Shown: in pieces, positions 14,864 to 31,250 of the stretch | How the letters are laid out: each line of letters begins with the position of its first letter | How positions within the stretch are numbered: the stretch's first letter is position 1 | Assembly (NCBI RefSeq): GCF_011769525.1 | Contig: NZ_CP050440.1 | Span: forward strand, 7,488,001 to 7,552,000 | DNA length: 64,000 bases | Source of the DNA: Tolypothrix sp. PCC 7910 | GTDB taxonomy: Bacteria; Cyanobacteriota; Cyanobacteriia; Cyanobacteriales; Nostocaceae | Direction of reading: 5' to 3' | The notes under the pieces: model-generated | The model's database searches: none | Told to the model about the DNA's origin: nothing | Seen by the model: the letters and a program-made list of their open reading frames with translations, nothing else | Translations under genes and position numbers: made by a program

Positions 14864-15631
14864 TCAATATACAAAGGGCTGTGTAGCTAAGTTTTCTAAC
14901 TCAATTGCTTTGAGTAAACTTTTCCAGTCTTCAGCCAGTTCTGCATTTTGAGGATTTGCCAAGCGAAGTTCCGCTAGCCTTGTTAAGGCATCGTACCACA
15001 GTCCCTTTTCAGCATAGATTGCTACTTGTTGTTGTGGGGAAGATTGTTTAAGGCGATCGCGTAATGCGACATCTAATTTCACCCGCTGTACCCAGCCTTC
15101 TACATACTCTAATTTTGCGAATTCTTGATGATTACAAGCTACTTTTACTTTAAAAAACCAGTGATATGACTTGTTGTTTTCTAAGATAGCCGGAGTATTT
15201 TGCAGTTTTACTCGCACAATTCCTGGTACTGAGGGTAGGGAAATATTTGTGCGATAGATGGTTTTATTTTGATCGGTTTGCAAAACGAACTCGATTGCGC
15301 GCAGGGAAGATTGATAGTAAGGAACGTAGAACCAAAAGCTGGGTTGTTCTACACTCGTTAAGCCCCAAACTTGGGTAATTGTAGGGGTTTGGTCTTGGTT
15401 GAGGCTTTGTTGATAGTTAGGTACAAAAGCGGTTAAAGGCACACCTAGCGCTGTACACCCTCCTCGGGAAGCACCTTCTCCTCGATTTCCTGGTGCGCCG
15501 CGATCGGGTGGTGGTGGCGGTGGTGGATTGAAATTAATTGCTGCTGATTTTTCCCCTAGTGCTGGCGGACTGTTGATGACTGTAACTGTGAGTGCAGCCA
15601 TTGAAACTAGTCGCAAAAGAAATAGTCTCAT
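14864..15631 (-). CDS. DUF928 family secreted protein
   Basis: A 255-residue protein of the cyanobacterial DUF928 family. It has a signal peptide (about 1-26, cleavage after PPALG or nearby), then a seven-proline run and a GGC motif (RGGCTALGVPLTAFVP) typical of the family. A beta-rich core contains SVEQPSFWFYVPY near 95-107, which usually begins the conserved domain, and a helical end (about 185-255) follows. It is expected in the periplasm. It is the last gene of an operon, 28 bp after the CHAT-CHASE2 gene. DUF928 genes often neighbour CHASE2 and TpsA-like genes in cyanobacteria; no biochemical role is known to me. Confidence 0.85.
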   Translation of the reverse strand: MRLFLLRLVSMAALTVTVINSPPALGEKSAAINFNPPPPPPPDRGAPGNRGEGASRGGCTALGVPLTAFVPNYQQSLNQDQTPTITQVWGLTSVEQPSFWFYVPYYQSSLRAIEFVLQTDQNKTIYRTNISLPSVPGIVRVKLQNTPAILENNKSYHWFFKVKVACNHQEFAKLEYVEGWVQRVKLDVALRDRLKQSSPQQQVAIYAEKGLWYDALTRLAELRLANPQNAELAEDWKSLLKAIELENLATQPFVY

Positions 15632-15659
15632 CTGTCCTACTCCTAACGAATTTTGAGTC

Positions 15660-18074
15660 CTATCTATTGTTAGTAATCACAAAAATAGGTGTATTTTCCG
15701 TGGAGCGAGGAAAATCTCTAATGTAGTAAGCAACTATGATGCTACTAACCAGGACAATAGTAGGAGGAATCAGCGGTATCCAACCACTCCACTGAATTAA
15801 AATTACTAGACATATCCCGTAGAGGCTGATAATTGCTACTCCCGCTGCAATGGTTAAATAAAGCAGCCGTTGACTATACCAAGATAGTAAAATACCTGCT
15901 AACGACCACCCCCAAATCCAAATAATTTCTTGCCAAATAGACCAAGTCCACAGAAGCGATCGCCCATCGATGGCTGCACTTAACAATTGACTAATCATTT
16001 GCGCTTGCAGGATCACACCTGGTATTTGCTCAATTGCACCTTCACGGGTAATAAAAGGTGTAGATGAGTAGTCTTGAAAGCTTTGGGCGGTTGTACCAAT
16101 GAGAACAATACGGTTTTTAACTGTATTAGGGTTAACTTTGCCTGTGAGTATCTCTGTTAGGGTAACCTGGGGGACAAATTTTTCTAGCGATCGCCCCAAA
16201 CGATAATTCAACAAAATTTGGTGTCCTGCAGCATCGATACCTTGATATCCACTGGTGTGTGCTGTTAGAGGTTTAAAAGTTGCTTTACCCAGTTTCCAAG
16301 CACCATCGTTGGTAAATTTTAAAGAAATATTTGCAGCCGCTAAGTAACGTAGTGCTAATTGCACGCTAAAAGCATAGGATGCTTTGCAAGGTGAAGAAGG
16401 TGGTGGTGTTAATGCTAGTAAATGGCGACGGACAATATTATCTGAGTCAATTACTAAATCGCTAAAACCCAAGCGTTCTGGTGGTATTTCCGGTGGGGGT
16501 TTGATTCCAGGATGTTCGGAATGGGAATCGCTAACTCTACAAACAGCACTCAGTTGGCTTTTATGCATTCGCTTCGCCAGTTCTGGTAACTCTGACTTAA
16601 CAGGGCGATCGCGGTAAATATCTAAACCAATTACTTGTGGTTGATATGTCTCCAATTTTTTCAACAATTTCAACAGTGATTCATCTGACAGAGAACCCTG
16701 TGGTTTTTCCGGTGCTTGTAATTGCACATCTTGTTCTGTAATCGTCACCACCAATAAGCGTGAATCAGGCTTTTCTTCTGGGCGGAGTCGCTGCAATTGA
16801 TCGAATGCATACAACTCAAATGCTTGCAGCATTCCCAAATAACGCCCACCTGCAACTAAACCTGTAATTGCTACACTTGAGCAAATTAGCCAAAAAAGTT
16901 GCATTTTTGAGTGTTTAGCTACCTTTTTAGGCTGTGGATTTGCAGTTGCAGCCGCAAAATCCACAGTTAAATTCTTACCATCTTTAACAGCCTCTTTGCT
17001 GATCAAATCCTGCCAACTCGGCGGGTTCTCAGCCGGATTTTGATAAATTACTGGTAACCAACTGGCGCAGGGAAATTGCCCATCTAATCCTTGCAACCTT
17101 TCTCTGGCTTCTCGAACTGCGAGATAAAGTGATTTACCTCCAGCGTATGCTTGTAAGAAATGTTTGAGAAATGTCTGCGCTACCCGATCCGGTACAGGTT
17201 CCCGCATGACAATTAACTGGGGAATATGCAAAGAAGCAAATTCTCGCGCTAATCCTAAGCCATCGCAGGAGTTAAAAATTGCTAACTTTAAGCCTCTTTC
17301 TACTGCTTGCTTCAAAGCATACTTTAACTGACTAATTGTCAAACTCTCTGTCTGGTTGATGTAAATCTGGCCAGTTTCTCCTGTACTGTGGCTGGAACTA
17401 TGTCCGGCGAAAAACAAAATATCCCAGTTTTGCTGCCAGAGATTATCTGTTAAGTCTTCACGAGATGGTTCAACTAGAAAGTAAATTTTTGTATCAGGTA
17501 GTTCCTGTAGCAGCAATTGGTCTGTTGTGATATCAACTCCTTGACTATCGCCTAACAAGGCCAAAATTTTCACCGTTGCAGTCGGTACAGGAGAAAAATT
17601 TACTTTTTCATAGCTAGGCGCACTTAAGGCGATTTCTGCATTGGGGTAAAGTTCGATCAGATCCCAAAGATGCCAAGGCAGCTTTTGTAGTTGATAGTCT
17701 TGAGTCTGTAGAATAACGCGGATTTTGTCAGATGTTTGAAGCTTCTCTAGCCACTTCTCCCGAATAGGACGAAAAGGTGCTGATTGCAGCCAAGAGTTGA
17801 AGCGATCGCGTAAGTTTTGCGCTGCTTGCAAACACTCTTGATCGCTGGCATTTGGCGACTGTGGTTTGGGTATGCCGATGGGGCGGGCGGAAAAATCCAG
17901 GCTGCGATATATTGCTTGCCAACAATTAAAATGAAGTGGTAATTCTATATCCGGTGGTAATTCGCCCATCACCTCGCTTTGAGGGCGACTATTTTCTTGG
18001 CCAATTTGCAGGGTAACTGGAAAACCAGCCTCAAAGCTACCTTTACCAAATTTCAAAACTACCAATTTAGCCAC
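15660..18074 (-). CDS. CHAT protease domain fused to a CHASE2 sensor
   Basis: An 804-residue membrane protein. The N-terminal 1-165 is an uncharacterised alpha/beta region. Residues about 165-350 are a CHAT (caspase-like) domain with the putative catalytic pair H225 (FFAGHSSSH) and C270 (FNSCDG), both present. A membrane segment at about 393-412 leads to a periplasmic CHASE2 sensor (about 415-690), closed by three membrane helices (about 700-790). The layout suggests an external stimulus sensed by CHASE2 that controls a cytoplasmic peptidase. It starts 34 bp after the AAA gene and ends 28 bp before DUF928. Substrate and stimulus are unknown. Confidence 0.9.
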   Translation of the reverse strand: MAKLVVLKFGKGSFEAGFPVTLQIGQENSRPQSEVMGELPPDIELPLHFNCWQAIYRSLDFSARPIGIPKPQSPNASDQECLQAAQNLRDRFNSWLQSAPFRPIREKWLEKLQTSDKIRVILQTQDYQLQKLPWHLWDLIELYPNAEIALSAPSYEKVNFSPVPTATVKILALLGDSQGVDITTDQLLLQELPDTKIYFLVEPSREDLTDNLWQQNWDILFFAGHSSSHSTGETGQIYINQTESLTISQLKYALKQAVERGLKLAIFNSCDGLGLAREFASLHIPQLIVMREPVPDRVAQTFLKHFLQAYAGGKSLYLAVREARERLQGLDGQFPCASWLPVIYQNPAENPPSWQDLISKEAVKDGKNLTVDFAAATANPQPKKVAKHSKMQLFWLICSSVAITGLVAGGRYLGMLQAFELYAFDQLQRLRPEEKPDSRLLVVTITEQDVQLQAPEKPQGSLSDESLLKLLKKLETYQPQVIGLDIYRDRPVKSELPELAKRMHKSQLSAVCRVSDSHSEHPGIKPPPEIPPERLGFSDLVIDSDNIVRRHLLALTPPPSSPCKASYAFSVQLALRYLAAANISLKFTNDGAWKLGKATFKPLTAHTSGYQGIDAAGHQILLNYRLGRSLEKFVPQVTLTEILTGKVNPNTVKNRIVLIGTTAQSFQDYSSTPFITREGAIEQIPGVILQAQMISQLLSAAIDGRSLLWTWSIWQEIIWIWGWSLAGILLSWYSQRLLYLTIAAGVAIISLYGICLVILIQWSGWIPLIPPTIVLVSSIIVAYYIRDFPRSTENTPIFVITNNR

Positions 18075-18108
18075 TGTAGTTTCTCCAGTACCCTATATAG
18101 GATTCTAC

Positions 18109-20118
18109 TTAATATTTTAAAATTCTTAGAGACAAACTATAGAATAATGTTTCTTTATTCTGATAAGCCTTTCTGGCAAATTCTGGCTTGTATTCATAAC
18201 GTAATATATTCTCTATTTGCTTGATTAGCTGCATTTCTAAACTTTGCTCGTTATCATATATCTGATTATTTTCATCGATGGCGCGTAAAACTTTGATACT
18301 GCCGTTATATCTAATTGCTACTTCTAATTTTAAATACCTTTGCTGATGATTACTTAAAAGTGAATCGACTAGATTATTTGGTAAGGAAATTATTTGATTA
18401 TTTTTAACTAATCGAGGAGTGGGAACAGGGATGCTACTATCTTCGCTGTCTAGTAATTTTGTTGAATTAGGAATGATGGTAAATAATATATCTGTTTTTA
18501 ATTCACTACTATTTCCGTAAAACTGATGAATTACTCGGGAAATAGTTTCGTTATTAACAGAATTTAACCAGTTATTACCAATATTTTTTTGCAAAAATAC
18601 AATCTGAGAAATTAGGATCACAAAAGGAATACCCAAAACTAGCATTGATAACTTAAAGTAATTATTTTTGTAAAATTCATGAATAGCTTTTGTTCTTGAT
18701 GGTGAAATTTGAGATGATTTGGCTCTAACCTCTTGTCCTTTGTTTGAAGCTATTTTTTCTGTATTATCTTGTGTTTCTTTAAGTTTTAAACTCCTAAGAA
18801 TTTGCTGGTCAAATTTACTATAGTTTTTGCTAATATTATTAGCTAGCAAGCTAGCACAAAGAAATTCATAATCTACAACGCTTAATGACTTACCATCAGC
18901 CCACTGCCATGCTTTATACAAAGCTTCTTCTGGCAATAATAAATGGGAATTATTAATGCGACCAGATTGTATCCATTCTTCTAGCTTTTCTGCATAAGGA
19001 CAGCCAAGCTTTTCTAATGTTTTAGTAATCCATTTATGATTAAAAACAGATGCATAAATGTAATTATATATTTTCAATCTGCCTTGGTTTTCCACTAAAC
19101 CAGATAGCAATAAATCTGTTGCTTCTTCGCTATTATCGTATTTAACTATCTTGCCATCTAAAATTGTTCGATATAGATGCAGAACTCCAATTGCATTTTG
19201 ACTTCTCAGTATGCGCTCACTTATTGTTCTTAAATGTTCTGGTTCATCTTGATATTCCCAGTTTTCAATTATTTTTTCGCTGACAATATTTTTAACCCAT
19301 TGTTGTTCTTCCCCAAAGCGAGGAGGTTTAGAAACATTAACGACTATGTCACAGATTTTTTGTGTTAAAAAAGGTTGCCCACTAGTTAAGCTTAAAATTT
19401 CTTTGAGAACTTTTTTAGCTATTTCTAAACTAGAAAATTTTTTAGCTAAACCTTTTGCTAAATGTTCAGCTTCCGAAAAATGGAACCCTGATAGTTCAAT
19501 GGGTTTCCCAAGATTAAAAGGTGTATGATTTTTATCTTGAATTAAATTTGAGGGAGTAGTCACACCTACTAAGGCAAAACTGAGGCGTTTATATTCTGGA
19601 GTATAAGACCTTTTACTATGACAAGTCTTAATAATATTAAAGAATTCATCTGTAGGGAAATCTAGGCATTTGACAAAATCGATTTCATCTATAAAAATTA
19701 CAATTTTCTCAGAAGTAGATTTCAGTAGTTCATCAAGAAATAAACTTAATTGATAAGCAGATGATAAATCTTTGTGTTTCTCCCACCATTCTTTTTGAAT
19801 GATAGGCGTAGTTATTTGTAGATTCATCATTAAGGAGTAAGCAATACCTTTATACCATTGCTGATAATTAAGCTGAGAACCAATTTCTGTGAGGTCAATT
19901 ACGGAACATATAATACCTTCTTTTTGTAAGCGGTGTATGGTATGTACTCTCAAGCTAGATTTACCCATCTGCCGGGAAGAAAATACATAGCAAAATTCCC
20001 CGGTTTTGAGTGCATTAAACAGGTTATCATCTGCTTTTCGTTTAACATAAGTAGGAGCATCATGAGGTAAGCTTCCTCCTACTTGATATCTATATGGTAA
20101 AGTCGTTTCTGCTGACAT
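18109..20118 (-). CDS. AAA-like NTPase with membrane anchor
   Basis: A 669-residue protein of the AAA-like family common in cyanobacteria (AAA_35 type). It opens with [20 protein letters not shown], a typical lead for this family. Walker [10 protein letters not shown] lies at about 47-55, a Walker B-like [10 protein letters not shown] near 140-149 and a sensor-like [12 protein letters not shown] near 185-195. A winged-helix-like region covers about 280-370. One membrane segment lies near 487-510, and the last 150 residues, basic and Tyr-containing, would be outside. It is 10 bp downstream of a second AAA gene and upstream of CHAT-CHASE2. It may act as a switch NTPase in the same pathway. Confidence 0.87.
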
Positions 20119-20128
20119 AGGCTATCTC

Positions 20129-21502
20129 TTAATTTAACCAAACACGAAAATAAAGACGATATAATTGGCATCGCGGTTCTATATTGTTACCTGAGAGGCG
20201 GACTAATCCCATCCTATTTAGCTGACGTACTTGTTCTGGGTTTAACAGTATTGGTTGATTAGCATTTACAAGATTTTTCATCGCTGCAATTAAATGTGGT
20301 TCTTGTTTTAGTTTTACCCAAAGTTCCCAGAGATGATCGGCATATAATCCTGATGGAGTAGCAGCCATATTTAAAACTTCTTCTATTGTGATATGTGGCT
20401 GATTTTTGATATGCAGCAATGCTTTTTGGACTAAGTAAGGATGTCCTCCTACAAGTGCCATTAATTTTTCTACTTGCTTTTCATGCCAATTTAATCCATA
20501 TCTAACTGCTAACTCTTGTACTTGTTCTCTGGTAAATTCTGGTAGCTCGATTATTTGCCCTACATTAAATGGTGATTGATTAATATTTAAAGGAATATAA
20601 ACATCTGTACTATAAGCAAGTATGATCCGTAAATTCTGCCATTGATTGCCATTCCTACCTTTTTCATGCCAAGCTCTTAGTAGTCCAAAAAAGTCAGATG
20701 CTAGGCTAGCATAAGGAAAAATATGATCTACGTTATCTAAGCCGACAACTAAAGGAGTATTTAAATTAGCCAATATATAATCTTGGAAATAAACGCTAGA
20801 CCTCATATTGGAAGATAGAGTTTTATCCCAGTAAATATCCATTTTAGTTGAACCAAATAAAGCATAACCTACGGTATTGCAGAACCAATAGTTTAAGGCT
20901 TCGATATTGCTCATAACTTCTTGGTCGGCTTCTAAAAAATTTATATTGATTGCTGAGTATCCTTGTGTTTGAGAATATTGCAATATCTTTTTTAAAAGAT
21001 GAGTTTTACCTGTTAACCCTGGACTCTTAATGCGAATTAATGCAGAAGGCTGTAATATTTCCCTGTAGCATATAGATTCAACTTGCGGTAAATCGATAAA
21101 TTGTTCGGAATTCAAGGGTAGTTGTTGGATAAAATTTGTGGAGATTTTATTTCTCACTAGTTCTGGTTTATAGGTGGCAAATAGGCTAATTAATTCACTG
21201 CGTCTGGAACGGCGCTCATAAGATTCTTCTTCTTTTAAACCAAATAATTGGCAAATTAAAGAAATTTGCCTTCTTACTGTTCCTGTTTCAATTTTTAATG
21301 CTAAAGCAATTTCCTCATCTGTTTCCCCAGTGAGGAGTTTCAGTAATATCTCTTTGCGTTTAGGCGAACGATTGAGTTGTTTAAATTTTTCATCTAAATC
21401 TTTATTATCCATAATTTTAGACATAGGATATCTCTGGTTACTAATAGGAAATTCTCTGGTATTAAATTTAACAAATCTACGCCTTTTGAGTAGAAATTTC
21501 AT
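20129..21502 (-). CDS. HTH plus AAA-like NTPase
   Basis: A 457-residue cytoplasmic protein and first gene of the four-gene operon. Residues about 35-100 form a LuxR/sigma-4-like helix-turn-helix (TDEEIALALKIETGTVRRQI). The rest is an AAA-like domain with P-loop IKSPGLTGKTHLLKKIL near 158-174, Walker B-like PLVVGLDNVDHIF near 250 and a winged-helix-like C-terminus. It shares the ATPase architecture with the next gene but lacks a membrane anchor. The ATG at 21502 has a good ribosome site (AGAGGATAA) right before it; an inner ATG 26 codons on is a weaker alternative. It may be a signal-transducing NTPase that also binds DNA. Confidence 0.85.
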   Translation of the reverse strand: MKFLLKRRRFVKFNTREFPISNQRYPMSKIMDNKDLDEKFKQLNRSPKRKEILLKLLTGETDEEIALALKIETGTVRRQISLICQLFGLKEEESYERRSRRSELISLFATYKPELVRNKISTNFIQQLPLNSEQFIDLPQVESICYREILQPSALIRIKSPGLTGKTHLLKKILQYSQTQGYSAININFLEADQEVMSNIEALNYWFCNTVGYALFGSTKMDIYWDKTLSSNMRSSVYFQDYILANLNTPLVVGLDNVDHIFPYASLASDFFGLLRAWHEKGRNGNQWQNLRIILAYSTDVYIPLNINQSPFNVGQIIELPEFTREQVQELAVRYGLNWHEKQVEKLMALVGGHPYLVQKALLHIKNQPHITIEEVLNMAATPSGLYADHLWELWVKLKQEPHLIAAMKNLVNANQPILLNPEQVRQLNRMGLVRLSGNNIEPRCQLYRLYFRVWLN

Positions 21503-21568
21503 TTATCCTCTGGATACATAGGGAGAGAAAAGGTAGAAACACCAATGATATGTATCTAGGTTGAAAAT

Positions 21569-21584
21569 GGGCATAGGGCATAGG
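21569..21584. repeat. STRR heptamer array GGGCATA x2
   Basis: Two tandem GGGCATA units plus GG, preceded by TTGAAAAT exactly as in the array at 14689. It lies between the first gene of the CHAT-CHASE2 operon and the small membrane protein gene. Confidence 0.65.
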
Positions 21585-21668
21585 AAAGACAGATTTTCGT
21601 CCTTGGTTGTGCCAAAACCTGGCGTGAATGGCTGTCTGGGAATGCTTGAGGTTATGAGATCAACTTAA

Positions 21669-22058
21669 TTATTTTCGGAAGTAATTCATTAAACGAATCA
21701 CTATATCAACAGATATCCGCAATGTGTCTACACAATTACGAAGGAAGCTGGACAAAGCAGCACAAATCACAAAGGTAAAAAAAGCACAAGCTATAATTAG
21801 CGCTGCAACCTCATTAGTCTTGGCTAACTCAATGGCTTTATCCAGCAGTAAGGGTAGATTTGGTGTTTCTGCTGGGATTGTATAACTTTGTATTGTGAGA
21901 TCTGAATTTTTTCCGGATTTACCTTCACTACTCTTGAAGACTACATTGACCATGTTTTGATGGTTGTTAGCCCATAGGTTCATATTTGGTAACTGACTCC
22001 AGATTGTTTTTGCAGTCAGATACTGAACGTTAGAATCAGAGTTAAATATGTTACTCAT
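21669..22058 (-). CDS. Small single-pass membrane protein, unknown
   Basis: A 129-residue protein from the ATG at 22058. That start is preferred because AAAGGAG lies 8 nt upstream; an earlier in-frame ATG at 22076 overlaps that ribosome site. The N-terminal half is polar (ending near TIPAETPNLP), followed by one strong hydrophobic segment (about 88-108, VAALIIACAFFTFVICAALS) and a short basic tail. I do not recognise a family. It lies on the same strand as the CHAT-CHASE2 operon, about 165 bp before it, and directly downstream of the 44-bp palindrome. It may belong to the system as a membrane component. Confidence 0.6.
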   Translation of the reverse strand: MSNIFNSDSNVQYLTAKTIWSQLPNMNLWANNHQNMVNVVFKSSEGKSGKNSDLTIQSYTIPAETPNLPLLLDKAIELAKTNEVAALIIACAFFTFVICAALSSFLRNCVDTLRISVDIVIRLMNYFRK

Positions 22059-22157
22059 CCGAGTTACTCCTTTCAAAACTTGATTAACGAAATGTCTAAT
22101 TGTTCATCTTGCCAGCACGGCCATGCTGGCATTTGTGAATGAAATTCATGAGGTACT

Positions 22158-22201
22158 ATGAGTGTAAAAGAGTATTCATATGAATACTCTTTTACACTCA
22201 T
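22158..22201. promoter_or_regulatory. Perfect 44-bp palindrome between divergent arms
   Basis: The sequence centred on CATATG at 22177-22182 is perfectly self-complementary over 44 bp with no loop; the left arm begins ATGAGTGTAAAAGAGTATTC and the right arm mirrors it exactly. It lies about 100 bp upstream of the small membrane gene and 377 bp upstream of the sigma-factor gene. No T-tract follows. It could be a cruciform-forming operator, a strong RNA hairpin in a leader, or a small palindromic element. Confidence 0.75.
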
Positions 22202-22420
22202 TTCTGTACTTATTTCACATCTACTGAGCAAAATAGTATGTTCCGGAAAGAAATTAGCAAGACTTTATTCATTTGTATAAAGAATTTAAGCAGTCAATGA
22301 ATGGACTATATATAGTATTCAATTGAATATGTTTGCACCGCTCTCATCCATATTGCTGCTGAATTATCCTCTATAGGTTGACTTCTGGAAAATTACTTAA
22401 AGAAACGTAAATCACCCATA

Positions 22421-22450
22421 CTGAATCAGCTGATTCAGCAATTGAATCAG
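22421..22450. promoter_or_regulatory. Candidate operator: three alternating TGAATCAG half-sites
   Basis: CTGAATCAGCTGATTCAG (22421-22438) is a perfect 18-bp palindrome. A third copy of TGAATCAG follows at 22443-22450, giving half-sites in the order forward, reverse, forward. It lies about 130 bp upstream of the sigma-factor start at 22578. The arrangement suggests binding of a dimeric regulator, perhaps with a second dimer nearby. The LuxR-type protein at 27621 and the HTH protein at 20129 are local candidates. Confidence 0.55.
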
Positions 22451-22577: not shown

Positions 22578-23786
22578 ATGCGCCCAAGACAAGATATTAT
22601 TGAGATTTTTTCTACTTTTGTTCTCTTCAATGGCGATGCTTTTGTCCGTTGGGTTAGCGATCCCAAGCTGCGGCGAAGTATGCAAAATTGTGTAGATCAG
22701 TCTTCGGAACAGGAATCTGCAACATTTTGGGCAATTTATTGGCATCGAGTTTGGCAGATGCAGGCGAGTTCCATAGCAGTTGCTCATCTTGCGGCCTATT
22801 TGCAGGAAGTCTGCTATTGGGTGGCGAGAAAAATGCAGATGAATGTACCAGGACAACATTCAGTTGCTGACTTTTTCCAAACAGCGATCGCTCGCATTGA
22901 TAAAGTACTTAAAGGCTTTAACCCGCAATTAGGTTCAAATTTGAAAGCTTATGCTGAATATGCTTTTAGCAATTTGATTAAAGATTTGTTACGTCAGCGT
23001 CAAGAAGCGGATATCTGTAGTGATTGGGCATTACTGCACAAAGTTAGCCAAAAGCGATTACTAGAATCTCTGCAACAGGCGGGATATAGCTCTCAAATGA
23101 TCAACCGTTATATTCTCGCTTGGAGCTGTTTCCTACAACTTTATGCACCCAAGGATGCTACCTCTGCTTACAAACTGATTAAACCCGAGCAAAGGACATT
23201 ACAAGCGATCGCCCAACTATATAATACTGAACGTCTCAGCCAGTTAAGTTCTCAAAGTCCTGTCATTCCTCCCGAAACTTTGGAAACTTGGCTAGTTACT
23301 TGCGCTCAAGCTGTACGCGCCTTTCAATATCCCACTTCAGTTTCCCTTGATATGTCTGCACCTGAGCAAGAGACAGGGGAATTACTCAATCGCTTCACAG
23401 ATAATTTTCAACAATCGGTATTAAATGAAATTATTGCCCAAGAAGAAGCACAGACAAGAGCACTGCAAAGTACGCAAATCAATCAGATTTTAACTGAGGC
23501 AATAGCAAAATTAGATACCGCAGACCAAAAACTCCTGCAAGCTTACTACCAGCAAGGATTGACCCAGCAGCAGATTGCCCAACAGCTGGGAGTCAAACAA
23601 TATACAGTTTCTCGCCAGTTGACTAAAATCAAACGGACTTTGCTCCTGGCTTTAGCAGAGTGGAGTCAACAAGCATTGCATATTCCTGTGACATCTGACG
23701 TAATCGACAGTATGAGCAATTCTTTAGAAGAGTGGTTGCTAGTTCACTATCGTCATCTTGTTTTGTCTTCTCCTGGGGAGTCCTGA
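22578..23786 (+). CDS. Divergent sigma-70 family RNA polymerase sigma factor
   Basis: A 402-residue protein from the ATG at 22578 (MRPRQDII); an in-frame ATG 14 codons earlier lacks a good context. A region-2-like stretch covers about 70-165, with GFNPQLGSNLKAYAEYAF resembling the core of divergent cyanobacterial sigma factors. A long linker follows, then region 4 with a clear helix-turn-helix at about 322-350 (QQQIAQQLGVKQYTVSRQL). The last 50 residues are an unusual extension. It is translationally coupled to DUF1822, whose start lies 2 nt past this stop. It runs divergently from the CHAT-CHASE2 operon and probably directs transcription of the island. Confidence 0.85.
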   Translation: MRPRQDIIEIFSTFVLFNGDAFVRWVSDPKLRRSMQNCVDQSSEQESATFWAIYWHRVWQMQASSIAVAHLAAYLQEVCYWVARKMQMNVPGQHSVADFFQTAIARIDKVLKGFNPQLGSNLKAYAEYAFSNLIKDLLRQRQEADICSDWALLHKVSQKRLLESLQQAGYSSQMINRYILAWSCFLQLYAPKDATSAYKLIKPEQRTLQAIAQLYNTERLSQLSSQSPVIPPETLETWLVTCAQAVRAFQYPTSVSLDMSAPEQETGELLNRFTDNFQQSVLNEIIAQEEAQTRALQSTQINQILTEAIAKLDTADQKLLQAYYQQGLTQQQIAQQLGVKQYTVSRQLTKIKRTLLLALAEWSQQALHIPVTSDVIDSMSNSLEEWLLVHYRHLVLSSPGES

Positions 23787-23788
23787 CC

Positions 23789-24952
23789 ATGACTTTTATT
23801 CCACCACCATCACCTGCAATTTGTGAACAGCTCACCCTGGAAATTTCCCTGACTTCTCAAATGCAGGAATTACCATCATTTTCGACATCAGGCGGACGCT
23901 GGCGCGCCTACCTTAACCAATTATGCTTAGATACATTTTTACATTGGTTGCGAGTCGAAGAAGTTCCCAATGCCAGAGTGTGGACGCAAACAGGGACATT
24001 ACCCAGCCTTTGGGAATTTACCAATGGTACTGCGATCGCTTGTGACGATATGCGATTGGTATTAATTCCTACAACAGCAATTGACATGGCAGAATTGCGC
24101 GTACCCCAGGAATGGGTGGATATTCCCAATTGGATGGCTGATTACTATATTGCAGTCCAAGTTAATCCTCATGCTGGTTGGATGACAATTTGCGGCTATA
24201 TTACCCATCGGCAATTAAAAACCAAGGGTGTGTATGATGCGAGCGATCGCGCCTACTGTTTGGATGAGAATGATTTAATCAAAGATATCAATGGTCTGTG
24301 GATTACGCGTCAACTTTGCCCAGAGGAAATTTTACGTAATTCAGTTGTACCCTTATCGCAGTTACCTTTAACTCAGGCAGAAAGTTTAATAGCACGGCTA
24401 GGGAATCCGGAAGTAGTGTTTCCTCGCTTAGCCATTCCCTTTGAATTATGGGGCGCATTGCTGGAACATGGCGGTTGGCGACAACGGCTATACGAGCGAA
24501 GACAGGGGTTATCAGAACAGTGGTCTATTCAGCAATGGCTACAAGCAGGAGTGTCTAATTTAGCACAACGATTTGGCTGGGAAATCTCACAATTACAATT
24601 AGCGCCCCGTGGTCTGCGAAGTCGGGAAACTGGTGAATTACAAGTATATTTATCTCGACATTTAATGCTTGCTGGTCATCCCTACGAATTGCGCGTCTTG
24701 TCTAGCGGTAATTTAAAAGACAATGTATGGCGATTTGAATTACGCAATACCAATCCCGATGAAATGATTCCGGTAGGATTTAAATTGCGACTATTAACCG
24801 AAGATTTACAACCATTTGCCAACAATGAGGATACTGCTAAACAGGCGATCGCCCAGCTTTATGTGGATGTCATGCTTGAGCCAGGAGAGGCTTTGGTTTG
24901 GGAAGTAGAACCAACACCAGATGGTTACGATCGAGAAATTTTACGCTTTTAA
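23789..24952 (+). CDS. DUF1822 family protein
   Basis: A 387-residue protein of the cyanobacterial DUF1822 family, started at 23789 (MTFIPPPSPAIC) because this ATG lies 2 nt after the sigma-factor stop and follows GGGGAG. The N-terminal part has W-rich stretches (LHWLRVEEVPNARVW) and the phrase NWMADYYIAVQVN with GYITHRQLK typical of the family. The C-terminal 120 residues are beta-rich and end LEPGEALVWEVEP. It is soluble with no signal peptide. DUF1822 genes very often follow sigma-factor genes of this type, so it may be an accessory or anti-sigma-like protein; that is inference. It converges on the TpsA-like gene with 3 bp between stops. Confidence 0.85.
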   Translation: MTFIPPPSPAICEQLTLEISLTSQMQELPSFSTSGGRWRAYLNQLCLDTFLHWLRVEEVPNARVWTQTGTLPSLWEFTNGTAIACDDMRLVLIPTTAIDMAELRVPQEWVDIPNWMADYYIAVQVNPHAGWMTICGYITHRQLKTKGVYDASDRAYCLDENDLIKDINGLWITRQLCPEEILRNSVVPLSQLPLTQAESLIARLGNPEVVFPRLAIPFELWGALLEHGGWRQRLYERRQGLSEQWSIQQWLQAGVSNLAQRFGWEISQLQLAPRGLRSRETGELQVYLSRHLMLAGHPYELRVLSSGNLKDNVWRFELRNTNPDEMIPVGFKLRLLTEDLQPFANNEDTAKQAIAQLYVDVMLEPGEALVWEVEPTPDGYDREILRF

Positions 24953-24955
24953 GTT

Positions 24956-27514
24956 CTAGTGCTGGCAAGAAATGTTGGGGGCAGTGTGCAAAGAGAAGCT
25001 AGCGTTAGGTCTTTGGGCAATCAACTGCACATTGCCGCGTCGATCCACAACCCATCCTTGAGCTTCTATAATTGGTTGTTGATTTTCACTAGCATTTTTG
25101 GATAAGTGAGTTAGCTTCGCTGGTGCTTGTTGGAAGGTTTCTGTCGGCTCATCCAATGTCACCCATTGGCTAATCACTGCTCTGTGACGTAACGGTTCAC
25201 TGGGACTCAAAGGCAATCCGCCACGTCCTGTAACCACAAAACTATTGCTGCGTGCATTTCTAGCAGTACAGCTTTGAGCGATTTGCTGGGAAGCATCAAC
25301 CAAATTTATCGGTAATTCTACTAAACCTTGAATAAGGTCAACATCGGGGGTGTTGAGTTCTATGATGCCGTCTATGCCCAGTTCTGAACTGGCAGTGATG
25401 TCGCTTAGAAAAGTTGGATTTTGACGAGGCTGAATACCAAAGATACCAAAAGCTGTGATATTTACTTTCCCACCACTACCACTATAAGCATTCGCTGTAA
25501 TATCACTATTTTCCCCAGGTAAGGCAACTATAAAACCATCTGGATTATTGATGGCAATATTACCACCGTTTCCAGTTTGCTGCGCCCTGCCAGCAGTAGT
25601 AGAAATTTCACTTTCACGGCGTAAAAGTAGTAAATCTGTAATGTTCAAATTTAGGTTACCGCCATTACCGGAGTTAGTTTGTGCAGTAATCTGGCTATTA
25701 TATAGACGTACTGAATTAGCAGTGATTTCTAAGTTTCCTGCCTCACCTGCTTGGCTGCTACTAACTGTTGCTTGCGCCCTGTCAGAAAGCAGCAATTGTG
25801 GTGTAGAAATCGTTAAGTTGCCAGCTTTTCCTAACCCTTGAGTACTAGCAGTTAATCTACTAGAACGACCATTATTAGCGCGACCACTTACCTGGATAAA
25901 GTCGGTAGCATCTACTTTTAAAGTACCGCCATTTCCTGAACCTCTGGTTTCAGAGGAAATGTTTGCTCCACCCAAAACCCGCAAACCACCAGTATTAATT
26001 GTCAAGTCTCCAGCTTTGCCAGTACTGTCACTTATAGTAAAAAAGCCACTAGGACTAGTTCCATTAGCAGAACGTCCAATTAACTCTATTTGTGAAGCCT
26101 TGACTATTAAATTACCCCCTGCGCCAGCACCAAGAGTACCACTTCTAATTTGCGCGCCGCCTTGGAGGTTTAATTTTCCAGTTTCTAGATTTAAGTTACC
26201 GGCATTTCCTGTAGTATTAGGGTTGCTTTGAGTGGTTATACTCGTAAAATTTCCACTCATCTCTACTGCTTCAATAGCTTTAATATTTATATCTCCCGCC
26301 TTTCCTATGCTTTGAGTTTCTGATGAGATTGTTCCTGCATTATTCAAAATTAATCGCCTAGTATTAACTGTTAAATTTCCGCCATTACCAATTGCTACTT
26401 GTTCTAGTTGTGATACTCCAGTAGTTAAACTACTGGGAAATCGGCTATTACTTATAGAGTTAAATATTTGTACAGATTCAGAAGCATTGACAGTGATATT
26501 CCCTCCAGTACCACTGTTGAATGTGCGACTAGATACTGTTGATTGTTCGCGAATAGTTAATTGCTTGGAATTAATATTTATATCACCAGCAGGTGCTGAA
26601 GTAAAAGTATTTGCTGTCACAATCGACCTTTGGATATCTACCTGCGAGGCGTTCAGGGAAATTGCACCTTTTTCACTGGGTATTTGGCTGTTAATGTCTG
26701 CTGCGGTTGCAATATCTACAAAACTTCTAGCAATTTGGATATTACCAAAGTTATGAGCATTTTGATAATTAAAAATCCAGCCTTGGTTTGTTTGATTAAG
26801 ATTGACTTGATTAACTCCAGTAACACTACCTAATTCAATTCGACCCCCAGGAGCATTGAGAAAACCACCTTCTAGGATGACATTACCACCTAATAGAGCT
26901 AATGTTTTACCTAAAGCTACTCTCACTCCTAGCCCTTGTAAGCTACTAGCGAAACCACCAATACCTTGCACCCGAATTTCTCCAGGATTGTCTCCGAATT
27001 GCAAGCCTATGGGCGTATTTATGGTTAATAAGGGTGTAGTTTGGGGAGCCGTTGCACTAAATTCAAAACCATTAGTAAATTTCAAGCTACTAGCAGTGCT
27101 ACCTACAAATGAACCGCCAATATCTAAGTGTGCATTCTGTCCAAAAATAATCCCACGAGGATTAATTAAAAATAAATTTGCTGTACCATTAGCACGAACT
27201 AATCCATCAATGTTAGAAACAGAATTACCTGTTACTCGACTAATAATATTTTGAATATTCGTAGGATTATTAAAAAAAGCTGTGCTGTTAGTGGGAATAG
27301 AAAAATCTTGAAAACTGTGAAAAAGATTATTTCCCGCTTGAGTTCCAGCCTCAATAATACTAGTGTTGCCTTCTATTCTAATAGTAGAATTATTTGACAG
27401 AGTACTATCCGGGGTGATTTGAGCCAGGGAGACATTTGGTGAAAACATTGAGATGCTCATGATAGCAATTCCCAATTTTTTTACCCGATACCAATGTATA
27501 GATACTCCAGACAT
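24956..27514 (-). CDS. TpsA-like secreted protein with filamentous haemagglutinin N-terminal domain
   Basis: An 852-residue exported beta-helical protein. A signal peptide (about 1-32, cleavage near SLAQ) is followed by a two-partner-secretion domain (about 33-280) with FLINPRGIIFGQNAHLDIGG near 110-130, the NPRGI-type motif of TpsA proteins. The rest is a repetitive beta-helix rich in N, G and T (phrases like GNGGNLTVNT and AGDINI). A conserved cyanobacterial C-terminus has SCTAR, FVVTGRGGLP and GWVVDRRGNVQL. The ATG has a good ribosome site (AGGAGA). A TpsB outer-membrane partner is not in the window. It probably ends up at the cell surface. Confidence 0.9.
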   Translation of the reverse strand: MSGVSIHWYRVKKLGIAIMSISMFSPNVSLAQITPDSTLSNNSTIRIEGNTSIIEAGTQAGNNLFHSFQDFSIPTNSTAFFNNPTNIQNIISRVTGNSVSNIDGLVRANGTANLFLINPRGIIFGQNAHLDIGGSFVGSTASSLKFTNGFEFSATAPQTTPLLTINTPIGLQFGDNPGEIRVQGIGGFASSLQGLGVRVALGKTLALLGGNVILEGGFLNAPGGRIELGSVTGVNQVNLNQTNQGWIFNYQNAHNFGNIQIARSFVDIATAADINSQIPSEKGAISLNASQVDIQRSIVTANTFTSAPAGDININSKQLTIREQSTVSSRTFNSGTGGNITVNASESVQIFNSISNSRFPSSLTTGVSQLEQVAIGNGGNLTVNTRRLILNNAGTISSETQSIGKAGDINIKAIEAVEMSGNFTSITTQSNPNTTGNAGNLNLETGKLNLQGGAQIRSGTLGAGAGGNLIVKASQIELIGRSANGTSPSGFFTISDSTGKAGDLTINTGGLRVLGGANISSETRGSGNGGTLKVDATDFIQVSGRANNGRSSRLTASTQGLGKAGNLTISTPQLLLSDRAQATVSSSQAGEAGNLEITANSVRLYNSQITAQTNSGNGGNLNLNITDLLLLRRESEISTTAGRAQQTGNGGNIAINNPDGFIVALPGENSDITANAYSGSGGKVNITAFGIFGIQPRQNPTFLSDITASSELGIDGIIELNTPDVDLIQGLVELPINLVDASQQIAQSCTARNARSNSFVVTGRGGLPLSPSEPLRHRAVISQWVTLDEPTETFQQAPAKLTHLSKNASENQQPIIEAQGWVVDRRGNVQLIAQRPNASFSLHTAPNISCQH

Positions 27515-27620
27515 TGTATTCTCCTAGCTTTAAAAGGCTTTTATGTAGATTTTTTAAATAAAATATAATGCTATTATTTTCTTCTTTATTATTATTTTGG
27601 TCTTCTAAAAAAAGTTAGAA

Positions 27621-28232
27621 TTAAATTTGTAAAAATATTTCTTGGTGTAAATAGCCATGTTTTTTTAAGTTAATATTTTTTATATGAAATTTTACAGTAT
27701 TAAGACTCACTCCTAAAGCGGTGGCAATTTGTTTATAGCTATATGATTGAGATAGTAAAGTTAAAACTTCTAGCTCTCGCTCTGTCAGATTGTATTTATT
27801 CTGTTCTATACGCAGTTCTTCTTGTAAAATTGCATTCCGGTCTTCTAAGAAAAAGATGAGCCAAGGATGATTTTCACAAGGAATGTTAACTTTTTCTTCA
27901 ACCTCAGGACTGATATGACAAGCACGAATACGAATAGTTTCCTCTTCTGAAATATCATAATCCATGATGAATACACTATCGAGATTAATCAAGTTTTTCC
28001 TAATCTGATGATATATATCATAAATTACTGGATTGAGGCTATCGTAGTGGGAATTACTATTCCATAATCGCTGACATATTTCTTGCGCTTTTTTATTTAA
28101 ATAAATGGGTTGTAAATTTTCAGATATTATCATTACCCCTTCTTTCACCAATTCAAGCAACATACTCTGGAGTATGTTGAAATTACAGCCAAAGCTAGTG
28201 TAACTATTTTCCATATCTGTATTGGCAAACAT
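27621..28232 (-). CDS. PAS-like/LuxR-type transcriptional regulator
   Basis: A 203-residue regulator. Residues about 25-95 look like a PAS fold (LVKEGVMIISENLQPIYLNK), and the C-terminal about 140-195 is a GerE/LuxR helix-turn-helix (LTERELEVLTLLSQSYSYKQ, then IATALGVSLNTVKFHI). Both are complete in outline. The start may be at 28232 or at the ATG six codons later (MENSYTSF). It lies 106 bp upstream of the TpsA-like gene on the same strand and downstream of the TPR-CHAT gene, so it may control either. No phosphoacceptor receiver domain is present; the signal would be sensed by the PAS part. Confidence 0.85.
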   Translation of the reverse strand: MFANTDMENSYTSFGCNFNILQSMLLELVKEGVMIISENLQPIYLNKKAQEICQRLWNSNSHYDSLNPVIYDIYHQIRKNLINLDSVFIMDYDISEEETIRIRACHISPEVEEKVNIPCENHPWLIFFLEDRNAILQEELRIEQNKYNLTERELEVLTLLSQSYSYKQIATALGVSLNTVKFHIKNINLKKHGYLHQEIFLQI

Positions 28233-28538
28233 AGTTAAATCTCATCCCTATATGCATCCAGTACAAAATCACCTGCAATCTCACCCCAGAATTTGAGAGC
28301 GATTTTCTTTGGGAAATGCTCTGCGATCGCCACGAATTAAGCTGAAGAATTTTGAGCATGAGGGTTTTAGCAACTTCAATCTCTAATGATGAATTGCGAT
28401 GACATCTATCCCTACGTGCGTTACCCAAATATATGCAGGGTGTCCTGTACCTCAGCAAAGGTTGTAAATTTTCTTAATAAACTTGCCCACAGATCAAGAA
28501 GCGAAGCTGGCGTGCTTGTGATTTCTGTTTGATGGCAC
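28233..28538. other. Intergenic gap
   Basis: About 306 bp with a HIP1-type site near 28323 and no supported gene. It should carry the promoter of the LuxR-type gene. I see no terminator with a T-tract. Confidence 0.4.
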
Positions 28539-31250
28539 TCAAAGCCAATTTCCGACTAATACATAGGGTGCCCAAAAAGCGGGACGGCTGTAGTTTGGAT
28601 ACTTTTTCAGGAGAGTTAGTTGAGCATGACGTAGCGCTTCTGCTTTGGTAACTGTGGCAGCAACCAACTCACGATAAAACTCTCCAATTAAAATAGCAGT
28701 TGAGCGATCGCCTACATTCCACAAACTAGCGATCGTACTCCTTGCACCTGCACGCACAGCAACACCTGCTAAACCGAGTGTAGCTCGATTGTCTCCGGCT
28801 GCGGTTTGACAAGCGCTCAAAATAAGCAATTCTATGGCTTCTGGGTATAATTCATCACGACGGCGCAAAAGTAAATCAAAGTCTGTCACATTAATTGGGC
28901 CATCTGTAGCTAAAACATAGGTATTTTCAGGACGAGAACTAAATTGTCCGTGAGTTGCTAGGTGAACAACGTTAAACGGAACAGATTTGAGCTTGCCTTC
29001 TAGCGCTTGACTGGTAAACTCTTGATCTAAAAGTTTTGTGGTTGATACTCCAGCTTTTGTAATCAAGTTAAATTCAGATTTGATTTCTGGTAAAGGCGGA
29101 AATTGAGAAAATGACGATGGCGGTTGCACTAATCCTGCTGCCAGGACTCGCAAATTTTCTTGTGCTAAAAACTTAGGTTTTTGTAATTGTAATCCTAGGT
29201 TTAAAGCAATCGCATATTTTTCAATTAAATACTGTTGACCGTCATGAAGTACTGCCATTGGGACATTTCGCAATGCACCATCCAGTACAAAAACTAAAGT
29301 CTTGACCTGACTACGTTGTAACTCTAACTCTATTGGTTGAATTAGCCAACTATATAATTGCTGAGATAGAGATTTAACTTCCTCGCTTCTGTCAGGTTCA
29401 TTTAAATACTCTCGCAATTGTTGGGAAACATTTTCTATTTGAATTTGAGATTGATTAACAACATAATGCCGCAGTTCTTGTTGAGGAAGTTTAACAATTA
29501 ATTGTAATTTGTCTTTTAAGATAATTGGATAAATAATAGCAGCAGTAGGATTATCCTGATCTACAACTTCATCTAGGACAATTTTTGTTGTATTCAAGCA
29601 AGCTTCGCGAAAAAAATTATCTAATTCTGCTAGCTGTAACGCCTCAATAATTTGTCTAGCTTTATCTAATGTTTGCTGATTGGGCTTTGGTGTTTGGGTA
29701 TCCAAAAGCAATGCTACTAATTCGCGGTAAACAGGCTCTACACTTTCTTTAAATGAAAATTGCACGTCTCGATTAACTGCAACCAAGTCACTTCTCAGAG
29801 ACTGTAATTCATTAACAGCCGCATCATAGGCTGCAATTGCTCCAGTTGTATTACCTTGCGCTTTGAGCAAACGTCCTAGTTGCCAATGCCAGTTGTAAGC
29901 AATATCTGGTGCATCTAGAGATTCAGCCAACGTCAATGCTTGCTGTGTCAGCTTTTGGGCATTCAACCATTGTTGGTTTTGCTCATACAGCTTGCCCAAA
30001 GTACCAATAGCATAAGATTCTGCGCGACCATCGCCAAGGGCTGCGGCTAGTTTCACGGCTGTAGCGAGCATTTTAGCAGACAATTCTGTAGCTGAGGAGC
30101 CATTAATAGGGCTGAGAGATTGCTGCTGCTTGGCAGCTTTAATTAAGCTTTCCGCAAAATGAATTCTGGCATAAACTGCTACTTGTGAGAGGGGGAGACT
30201 ATCTAGCTCTGTACTAATTTGCTTTAGCAGGGGTTGTGCTGGTGTCCATTGCTGTGTAATTAATAGCACACTCACAAGATTGATTTGCCCTTGAACCTTA
30301 GTAATTGCTGAAGGCGCTGTGGCTATAGCTTGTTGATAAAATGCGATCGCAGTTTGGTAATCATCCCCAATTCTAAAATTGTTACCTAAACTGAGTAACG
30401 CTGCGCTAATTTCTGGTTTTGATTGCAAATTCTCGGCAGTTTTGAGGCTATTTTGTAGAGCTTGACGGGATTGCGCTAAATCTCCAGTTAACTGGAGTGC
30501 ATCGCCAAGCGATCGCAATTCTACAGCTTTAGTCAAAGAATCCGGTTGAGATTGTAAATTTTTGCCTACCTCCAGCAACATTGTCAAAGCACGACGGTAG
30601 AATCCTAATATCTGCAATGCCTGTGCTTGATTAATTTGACTGCGATTTATCCCTGTGCGATCGCTCAGTTGAGTATACACTACCTCAGCTTTTTGCCAGG
30701 TTTCTAATGCTTGTTGCGGCTGACCTCGATCTAATTGCACATTACCTTGAATTTCCTGCGTTTGCGCTAAAACTTGCAAATGTGGTTTGGAATTTTCAGT
30801 TGCTAGCAGTTGCAAACTGTTATTGATGGCTGTGGTGGCTTCAGCAAACATCCCACGCTGTTTGTAAACTAGGGCAAGATTGCTGAGGGTTACTGCTTGT
30901 CTTAGTTCGTCTTTTTGCCCTTGATATTGTTGAAATACTCTCAACAAAACTTCTTGTGCTTCTAGTAATCTACCTGTTTCATAGAGTATTTTTCCTTGTT
31001 GCTCTAAATCTTTGACAGCTATTTTTGATGTGGATAAATGCTGAACTGGTAAATCAGTTGCGTAAGATGCTCTCAAGACAGGTGTAACTATCACAAACAC
31101 AGTTAATAGCAATAGCAACAGGTAAGCAGACAAAGGACGAGATTGCTGTTTTTTACTTTTTGCTAACTTTAGAAAAGATATTAACCGATTTCTCATCATC
31201 AGTAAGTGGGCGCAATTAAGCTGAACTCTGGAAAGTTTATGCTTAACCAC
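28539..31250 (-). CDS. Membrane-anchored TPR-CHAT protein
   Basis: A 903-residue protein with a basic N-terminus, a membrane or signal segment at about 41-60 (LSAYLLLLLLTVFVIVTPVL), many TPR units over about 80-490, a helical linker and a C-terminal CHAT domain (about 600-903). The predicted catalytic pair H767 (VHLATHG) and C814 (LSACQTA) is intact. After the N-terminal segment the protein should face the periplasm. The GTG at 31250 is the first start; the tandem ATGs at 31199 and 31196 (MMRNRLISF) are equally plausible. It resembles the caspase-like TPR-CHAT group in gene neighbourhoods with TpsA and sigma-factor genes. Its protease activity is predicted, not shown. Confidence 0.88.
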   Translation of the reverse strand: MVKHKLSRVQLNCAHLLMMRNRLISFLKLAKSKKQQSRPLSAYLLLLLLTVFVIVTPVLRASYATDLPVQHLSTSKIAVKDLEQQGKILYETGRLLEAQEVLLRVFQQYQGQKDELRQAVTLSNLALVYKQRGMFAEATTAINNSLQLLATENSKPHLQVLAQTQEIQGNVQLDRGQPQQALETWQKAEVVYTQLSDRTGINRSQINQAQALQILGFYRRALTMLLEVGKNLQSQPDSLTKAVELRSLGDALQLTGDLAQSRQALQNSLKTAENLQSKPEISAALLSLGNNFRIGDDYQTAIAFYQQAIATAPSAITKVQGQINLVSVLLITQQWTPAQPLLKQISTELDSLPLSQVAVYARIHFAESLIKAAKQQQSLSPINGSSATELSAKMLATAVKLAAALGDGRAESYAIGTLGKLYEQNQQWLNAQKLTQQALTLAESLDAPDIAYNWHWQLGRLLKAQGNTTGAIAAYDAAVNELQSLRSDLVAVNRDVQFSFKESVEPVYRELVALLLDTQTPKPNQQTLDKARQIIEALQLAELDNFFREACLNTTKIVLDEVVDQDNPTAAIIYPIILKDKLQLIVKLPQQELRHYVVNQSQIQIENVSQQLREYLNEPDRSEEVKSLSQQLYSWLIQPIELELQRSQVKTLVFVLDGALRNVPMAVLHDGQQYLIEKYAIALNLGLQLQKPKFLAQENLRVLAAGLVQPPSSFSQFPPLPEIKSEFNLITKAGVSTTKLLDQEFTSQALEGKLKSVPFNVVHLATHGQFSSRPENTYVLATDGPINVTDFDLLLRRRDELYPEAIELLILSACQTAAGDNRATLGLAGVAVRAGARSTIASLWNVGDRSTAILIGEFYRELVAATVTKAEALRHAQLTLLKKYPNYSRPAFWAPYVLVGNWL

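Follow-up and report, generated by a model that had tools for sequence, protein, structure and literature searches.

Kaur et al. 2021 (PMC8195603), in the accessible part of their text, describe EACC2-caspase proteins with variable C-termini, CHASE2 among them, whose genes neighbor those of an ECF sigma factor and a DUF1822 protein; autoproteolytic activation of the protease was proposed, and DUF1822 was called a tetratricopeptide repeat (TPR) protein. The present work concerns a ten-gene island of the cyanobacterium Tolypothrix sp. PCC 7910 that contains this sigma/DUF1822/caspase core, already predicted in print in that 2021 text. The island lies in a stretch of 64,000 nucleotides, referred to here as the window (C1:7488001-7552000 of an 8.76 Mb genome), and joins a sigma factor, a DUF1822 protein, a CHAT protease with a CHASE2 sensor domain (CHAT-CHASE2), a DUF928 protein, a protein with a two-partner secretion (TPS) domain, a TPR-bearing CHAT protease (TPR-CHAT), two AAA_35 NTPases, a 135-amino-acid membrane protein and a LuxR-type regulator. 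An earlier note on this DNA had read the ten genes as one sensor-protease cascade and knew of no description that joins them; given the neighborhood published in 2021, the second statement was too strong. The island is real, yet it is not a single ten-gene system. The recurrent module is six genes, namely those for the sigma factor, DUF1822, CHAT-CHASE2 and DUF928 and, less strictly, the TPS protein and TPR-CHAT, and the other four genes are local additions.

The window CHAT-CHASE2 protein resembles the EACC2-caspases in its constant N-terminal caspase-like module, its His/Cys pair, its variable C-terminus and its adjacent sigma and DUF1822 genes, its N-terminal region being equated with EACC2 on the basis of architecture. 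Two further systems offer precedents for proteolytic control of a regulator. In Craspase, as the excerpt of PMC10028731 has it, the CHAT protease Csx29 cleaves Csx30, an inhibitor of CASP-sigma. The window likewise combines, at a single locus, a CHAT protease with a sigma factor and a third protein, and protease-controlled transcription would follow by analogy; the Craspase trigger is RNA, whereas here it would be a membrane sensor. No Cas family appeared among the general family-scan matches of the ten proteins, no search having been aimed at Cas7-11 or a CRISPR array. In Anabaena, the caspase-like protease HetF reportedly cleaves PatU3, which limits HetZ, so that there too a cyanobacterial protease cleaves the inhibitor of a regulator (PMC12288457, accessible part). 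The window protease falls outside the HetF family (36.5 bits against an NCBIfam cut-off of 1200) and differs in its CHASE2 domain and sigma pair. DegS/RseA-type anti-sigma proteolysis, named in the same excerpt of PMC10028731, would share the passage from envelope signal to sigma release, if the model proposed below holds, but in the window a single polypeptide holds both sensor and protease, the protease part being predicted to lie inside, and DUF1822 proteins mostly lack membrane-like segments. CHASE2 histidine kinases, cyclases and GGDEF/EAL proteins have the same sensor domain and often a DUF928 neighbor; the window has a protease where they have those enzymes.

A 2012 survey (PMC3501461) contains the same topology idea for a metacaspase-CHASE2 protein of Trichodesmium, and a 2017 paper on WD40 proteins (PMC5587647) reports CHASE2 and DUF928 as neighbors in a single species and refers to a DUF928 protein that responds to acid, both in their accessible parts. 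The regular association of DUF928 with CHASE2, the TPS/TPR-CHAT output and the replacement of the protease by a kinase, all reported below, had no description that we could find in the open-access library searched, although one may be in print elsewhere; the accessible text of Kaur et al. (PMC8195603) contains no DUF928, TPS, TPR-CHAT or kinase exchange. Nothing was found in that library on a CHAT domain together with two-partner secretion.

Results

DUF1822 was present in 48 of 78 genomes of the class and in 33 of 146 genomes of the phylum when a strict E ≤ 1e-60 was applied; DUF928 was present in 64 of the 78 class genomes. The comparison set comprised 80 DUF1822-centered loci and 20 fixed-position control loci. 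A DUF1822 model built from the window missed 21 of the 80 loci, and models rebuilt for short, middle and long types matched all 80. With window-built models, the controls contained no DUF928, window-type CHAT, CHASE2, DUF1822 or TPS (0/20 each), and sigma and TPR-CHAT matches in 2/20 each. A sigma-like gene lay directly upstream, on the same strand, of 80 of the 84 DUF1822 open reading frames (ORFs) detected with the rebuilt models; the four without one are in loci L040, L045, L086 (an ORF fragment of 93 amino acids) and L106. Locus L045 (L045:5553-9196) has two genes between sigma and DUF1822, one encoding FHA and ferredoxin-reductase-like domains. Window-type CHAT genes followed DUF1822 within 300 nucleotides on the same strand in 48 of 58 cases; of the other ten, four follow it farther off, five are divergent, as in the window, and one is opposite.

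Within the Tolypothrix genome itself, we found matches to 60 CHAT, 14 CHASE2, 5 DUF1822, 9 DUF928 (one below the family cut-off), 32 TPS and 23 AAA_35 sequences. As there are 60 CHAT matches, two CHAT genes within 16 kb are unremarkable by themselves. Linkage was assessed by shifting the chromosome positions of one family against those of another 5000 times, on chromosome C1 only (57/60 CHAT, 31/32 TPS and 21/23 AAA_35 included). Four of five DUF1822 genes had CHASE2 within 10 kb (shifted mean 0.17), and seven of the nine DUF928 genes, counting the one below cut-off, had CHASE2 within 5 kb (shifted mean 0.15). The gene-neighborhood comparison that the earlier note had called for returned co-occurrence above chance for the core genes and not for the four additional ones.

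The window sigma factor matches sigma-70 region 4 (Pfam E 1.5e-8) as well as TIGR02937 (NCBIfam, E 1.2e-38), and conservation places its start at the ATG at 22578, giving 402 amino acids. Consensus among relatives indicates that DUF1822 probably starts at the ATG at 23789, 2 nucleotides past the sigma stop, and because this start lies beyond that stop, the 54-nucleotide overlap of the two ORFs is probably not real. The comparison loci hold 32 long, 40 short and 8 variant sigma genes. Short sigma genes, mostly 210-260 amino acids and with the same gene order kept, pair with short DUF1822 (40/40), variant with middle (8/8), and long with long (26) or middle (6); since the models were built from the same genes, this match of types is descriptive. 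By profile comparison, the variant group matches the long type at 98.9% probability. Co-variation was measured by correlating sequence distances and permuting partners within genomes 2000 times. Sigma and DUF1822 co-varied in both main types, with r 0.73 against a permuted mean of 0.36 for the short type (n = 40) and 0.72 against 0.45 for the long type (n = 32), neither being reached by any permutation (0/2000). DUF1822 and CHAT co-varied similarly (0.51 vs 0.29, 0/2000, n = 35; 0.78 vs 0.46, 6/2000, n = 13), and for sigma and CHAT the observed values were reached in 5/2000 and 4/2000 permutations. The variant type (n = 8) showed no partner co-variation (981/2000). Such pairing is the pattern of a sigma factor and its own putative regulator, CHAT being the third gene.

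The AlphaFold2 (AF2) model of DUF1822 (predicted local distance difference test, pLDDT, 88.9; predicted template modeling score 0.85) has a mixed alpha/beta fold with a C-terminal beta region. It contains no helix-repeat array, and the Pfam scan gave no TPR match, which disagrees with the designation as a TPR protein in the accessible text of Kaur et al. A role as membrane anti-sigma factor was considered and found unsupported, as an N-terminal hydrophobic segment occurs in only 4 of 83 DUF1822 proteins and any membrane-like segment in 19 of 83. Fusions that might indicate contact, of sigma with DUF1822 or of DUF1822 with CHAT or CHASE2, were sought among the 84 ORFs and none was seen. Alternatively, DUF1822 might act positively on its sigma factor, or CHAT might have as its substrate the sigma protein itself, which has a long middle region; the protease would then end the response and not start it. 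The nearly constant pairing of DUF1822 with sigma, even where no window-type CHAT is nearby, and the lack of anti-sigma similarity are in keeping with this reading; the precedent of Csx29, Csx30 and CASP-sigma and the short sigma type, which retains the same gene order, speak against it. We consider it unlikely in both versions.

The catalytic cysteines named in the earlier note are correct for both proteases, the pairs being H225/C270 in the 804-residue protein and H767/C814 in the 903-residue protein, the latter at residues 284 and 331 within the last 420 amino acids. Among aligned window-type CHAT proteins (window included), the His is present in 58/58 and the Cys in 56/58. CHAT-CHASE2 has hydrophobic segments at residues 391-409, 742-760 and 764-782; with this hydropathy, from which alone the topology is read, we take CHAT as cytoplasmic and CHASE2 as extracytoplasmic. 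Many matches to the protein are confined to residues 1 to about 357 in reading frames of widely differing length, indicating a constant N-terminal module with variable C-termini. In several large neighboring genes the CHAT model found nothing. In L084 (L084:6795-9056), a Peptidase_C14 caspase lies directly downstream of sigma/DUF1822, at the usual place of CHAT. Proteins of about 1,660-1,690 amino acids adjoin sigma/DUF1822 at L049:3615-8663, L063:11249-16294, L068:10579-15558 and L065:13582-18666; the two that were scanned, in L049 and L065, are nSTAND1-WD40 proteins in which the CHAT model found nothing. These large genes are followed by DUF928 in L049, L063 and L068 and by TPR-CHAT in L049 and L063.

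DUF928 tracks CHASE2 and not CHAT. With the window, ORFs shorter than 380 amino acids and identical sequences dropped, 32 of 37 CHAT-CHASE2 genes had a DUF928 gene no more than 3 kb away, compared with none of 20 CHAT genes without CHASE2. Counted by locus, DUF928 accompanied 32 of 37 loci with CHASE2, 4 of 43 loci without it and 0 of 20 controls. In 20 DUF928-centered loci from across the class, a CHASE2 gene was adjacent in ten (four cyclases, two CHAT and four unlabeled by the seed models), and as the other ten have no adjacent CHASE2 gene, DUF928 also occurs without CHASE2. The window DUF928 protein has a hydrophobic segment at residues 1-19, and its AF2 model (pLDDT 85.5) shows beta strands followed by four helices. 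A fold search of the PDB was uninformative, with a single match at E ≤ 0.001 to the C-terminal domain of MtxA (template modeling scores 0.35/0.46). We propose that DUF928 is a periplasmic partner of CHASE2.

The same sensor and output recur in this genome with differing signaling chemistry between them, as the gene content of three further loci shows. L182 and L183 contain DUF928, a CHASE2-histidine kinase-receiver gene, a second receiver-bearing gene, TPR-CHAT and TPS; where the window has CHAT and sigma/DUF1822, these two loci have hybrid histidine-kinase genes. In L182 the second receiver-bearing gene encodes a receiver and a kinase ATPase domain, and its counterpart in L183 is cut by the locus edge. 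In L180, DUF928 accompanies a CHASE2-GGDEF-EAL protein. The region C1:8001482-8042336, which includes part of L183, packs nine TPS matches into 41 kb, after which come TPR-CHAT, DUF928 and the CHASE2-histidine kinase.

These observations bear on the immunity or cell-death system proposed for the caspase/ECF sigma/DUF1822 neighborhood in the accessible text of Kaur et al. 2021, in which the caspase-like protease would be activated autoproteolytically and the sigma factor would be a later transcriptional step. The variable CHAT C-termini fit such a system, and in PADLOC TPR-CHAT matched BovA weakly (E 4.5e-4) and the sigma factor matched helix-turn-helix models, also weakly. PADLOC returned no match for CHAT-CHASE2, DUF1822 or DUF928 at E ≤ 0.001, however, and the CHASE2 form, which retains surface genes and a putative periplasmic partner and whose place at other loci is taken by a histidine kinase, looks like envelope signaling. 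An immunity function of this form is in our estimate rather unlikely.

The TPS domain occupies residues 31-274, at the N-terminus of the 852-amino-acid protein (230.7 bits against a cut-off of 33.5). The scan, which covered the ten genes and eight further ORFs of the window but neither its remainder nor the rest of the genome, showed no gene for a cognate outer-membrane transporter. In TPR-CHAT, the catalytic His and Cys are conserved in 30/30 aligned sequences (window included). TPR-CHAT or TPS genes lie within 8 kb of 24 of 37 CHAT genes with CHASE2, compared with 5 of 20 without; by locus, the counts are 24/37 with CHASE2, 10/43 without, and 2/20 in controls. L040 and L061 encode a TPS domain with CHAT fused after it, as do, judged by the models, 4 of 20 DUF928-centered loci, and because of these fusions the data suggest that TPR-CHAT acts outside the cytoplasm. 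In L040 (L040:14473-19551) a single ORF encodes glycosyltransferase 2, TPS and a C-terminal CHAT domain; a glycosyltransferase ahead of an export domain is odd, and the arrangement may be an ORF artefact.

The same two genes might instead be an independent secreted system, an adhesin or conflict protein with its processing peptidase, that the sigma factor does not control. In the Tolypothrix genome TPS genes lie near CHAT regardless of CHASE2 (14/31 within 10 kb; shifted mean 3.71, equaled in 31/5000 shifts), the two are fused in L040 and L061, and caspase-like domains are known to process secreted proteins (PMC3482391, accessible part). TPS near DUF1822 was not enriched at 5 kb in this genome (1/5, 652/5000 shifts). 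The enrichment of the arm beside CHASE2-type loci (24/37 vs 5/20) and its recurrence with CHASE2-kinase loci argue in the other direction, and we rate independence as somewhat unlikely.

All ten ORFs claimed in the earlier note are present (Table 1), and Pfam bore out nearly all of its domain labels, the exception being a PAS domain in the 203-amino-acid LuxR protein, for which there was no match at E ≤ 0.01. Four of the ten genes are not conserved neighbors. CHAT-CHASE2 is 97% identical to the protein of loci labeled Nostoc linckia FACHB-104 and Calothrix membranacea FACHB-236, which marks the source as a Nostoc-type cyanobacterium. The related loci number eleven: L139 and L140 at 97% identity, eight (L142-L149) at 71-79%, and L141. 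In L142-L149 the sigma and CHAT-CHASE2 genes are directly divergent, and the AAA_35 pair and the 135-amino-acid gene are missing between them. BLAST, run against the first ten of the eleven, showed homology in L142-L149 to window positions 17875 to about 18087, resuming at about 22531; none of the intervening 4.4 kb was present there. Besides the window, L139 and L140 alone carry the AAA_35/135-amino-acid block. About 75 nucleotides of the window (21557-21632) are absent from these otherwise ~95% identical loci.

Table 1. Genes and palindrome of the island, with positions in the window
Feature	Position	Strand	Evidence
DUF928 protein, 255 amino acids, hydrophobic N-terminus (signal peptide-like)	14864..15631	-	Pfam E 6.8e-60
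CHAT-CHASE2 protein, 804 amino acids	15660..18074	-	Pfam CHASE2 E 1.2e-66, CHAT E 2.9e-16
AAA_35 NTPase (a-type), 669 amino acids, one membrane segment; local insert	18109..20118	-	Pfam E 1.5e-27
AAA_35 NTPase (b-type), 457 amino acids; local insert	20129..21502	-	Pfam E 3.8e-125
135-amino-acid protein, one membrane segment (90-108); local insert	21669..22076	-	no family
Perfect palindrome, 22-nucleotide arms, no loop	22158..22201	.	sequence
Sigma-70 family factor, 402 amino acids, long stretch between sigma2 and sigma4	22578..23786	+	TIGR02937 E 1.2e-38
DUF1822 protein, 387 amino acids	23789..24952	+	Pfam E 3.5e-118
TPS-domain protein, 852 amino acids, presumably exported	24956..27514	-	Pfam TPS E 3.6e-68
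LuxR-type regulator, 203 amino acids	27621..28232	-	LuxR/GerE E 9.6e-12
TPR-CHAT protein, 903 amino acids, N-terminal membrane segment 40-58	28539..31250	-	Pfam CHAT E 1e-59 + TPRs

The reading of the island as a single ten-gene system regulated by the AAA_35 pair and LuxR is highly improbable and largely refuted by the absence of the segment from L142-L149, where homology resumes on both sides. In its favor, AAA_35 genes are enriched near DUF1822 in the Tolypothrix genome (2/5 DUF1822 within 5 kb, reached in 9/5000 shifts), and an AAA_35-like gene stands beside or beyond DUF928 in L144 and L145. The AAA_35 models, built from few seed sequences and of low reach, match only two loci among the 80 and the window, both in this genome, and the shift test showed no enrichment of AAA_35 near CHASE2, DUF928 or TPS. 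Among the AAA_35 genes of this genome (C1 and C5), a strong and a weak family member stand side by side nine times, the window pair included, and no CHASE2, DUF928 or DUF1822 match lies within 10 kb of any of the eight other pairs. Because such pairs recur, the insert is regarded as a recurrent cassette of its own, and the AAA_35 pairs look like a separate modular system. In five of 12 strong members a CHAT match lies in the same open frame; in a sixth, the CHAT match is interrupted by stops. The window copy (18109-21502) has a sigma-region-like helix-turn-helix instead of CHAT, which in the b-type protein matches TIGR02983 at residues 6-81 (E 2e-5, below cut-off).

The 135-amino-acid protein has no Pfam or NCBIfam match, and among the compared loci its gene occurs only in the window, L139 and L140. 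Among the compared loci, the LuxR model matches only the window, L058 and L156. The gap that the earlier note had called palindrome-rich contains one perfect palindrome of 2 x 22 nucleotides and a second of 20 nucleotides at 22421-22440, seen as an inverted BLAST match. The larger one has no second place in the genome at up to 3 mismatches; its central 36 nucleotides are exact in one of 207 loci (L140), and L139 has the palindrome at 97.7%. As a regulatory site of the module it was rejected, lying at a single genomic place inside an inserted, lineage-specific segment, and the co-regulation of the two divergent arms that had been read from it is unsupported.

Discussion

For the core genes, the linkage, the co-inheritance, the domain content and the conserved catalytic pairs are matters of direct observation. 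The idea of a sensor-protease cascade holds up for these genes and not for all ten together. We tentatively propose, at close to an even chance, that the core is a transmembrane proteolytic relay standing in place of the sensor kinase of its sister loci, with the sigma factor freed by cleavage of DUF1822. DUF928, in the periplasm, and CHASE2, presumably in contact with each other, would detect an envelope or outside signal, and this would switch on the CHAT protease in the cytoplasmic part of the CHASE2 polypeptide. The protease would then cleave its putative substrate DUF1822, which may otherwise bind the co-transcribed sigma factor and keep it inactive. Genes transcribed under the freed sigma factor would probably include its own locus and the neighboring candidate output genes TPS and TPR-CHAT; beyond the cytoplasm, the TPR-CHAT protease would act on the TPS protein or together with it. 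This order, from signal through CHAT activation and DUF1822 cleavage to sigma release, is favored because of the pairing pattern and the Csx29/Csx30 and HetF/PatU3 precedents.

Several results weigh against the relay. The co-inheritance of sigma, DUF1822 and CHAT could arise from tight linkage alone. Six of six variant sigmas scanned fall short of the Pfam cut-offs, and the short sigma genes lie below the family cut-offs and reach only 22% probability against the long sigma profile. No PDB entry matched the DUF1822 fold at E ≤ 0.001 in Foldseek, and the best matches of a PDB profile search were MHC chains at E ~0.1, which is not meaningful; with no meaningful match by sequence or fold, DUF1822 has no likeness to Csx30 or to a solved anti-sigma factor. 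A shared promoter footprint was sought upstream of sigma in 11 aligned sequences, with nothing convincing found. Window-type CHAT is missing from 26 of 80 DUF1822 loci and CHASE2 from 43 of 80, and both expected membrane regions were recovered by the hydropathy rule in only 26 of 38 CHAT-CHASE2 proteins. In L141, CHAT-CHASE2 and DUF928 (78% identical) occur in another layout, and its 22 kb contain no sigma or DUF1822 match, with the rebuilt models also, and no AAA_35 match; either the partner is elsewhere or the module has lost it. On the output side, an N-terminal hydrophobic segment is present in only 17 of 29 TPR-CHAT proteins, and TPS near CHASE2 was not enriched at 5 kb in the Tolypothrix genome (1/14 CHASE2, 1636/5000 shifts). 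Finally, as the second gene of L182 is a receiver with a kinase ATPase domain and that of L183 is cut, no DNA-binding response regulator is seen in the loci where a kinase takes the place of the protease.

In broader terms, the sensor protease, with CHASE2 outside and CHAT inside, and its sigma/DUF1822 pair may be a proteolytic equivalent of kinase signaling, a CRISPR-free parallel to Craspase in which the two chemistries are exchanged behind the same DUF928 sensor and before the same TPS/TPR-CHAT output; we hold this possible, at somewhat less than an even chance. To our knowledge, no role has been assigned to most caspase-like proteins of cyanobacteria. The module is a small testable unit, with a candidate substrate in DUF1822, a read-out in the sigma regulon and a candidate periplasmic partner in DUF928. 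Should the proposal be true, sigma factors under protease control would be known from membrane signaling as well as from a CRISPR system triggered by RNA, and there would be working hypotheses for two widespread families of unknown function, DUF1822 and DUF928.

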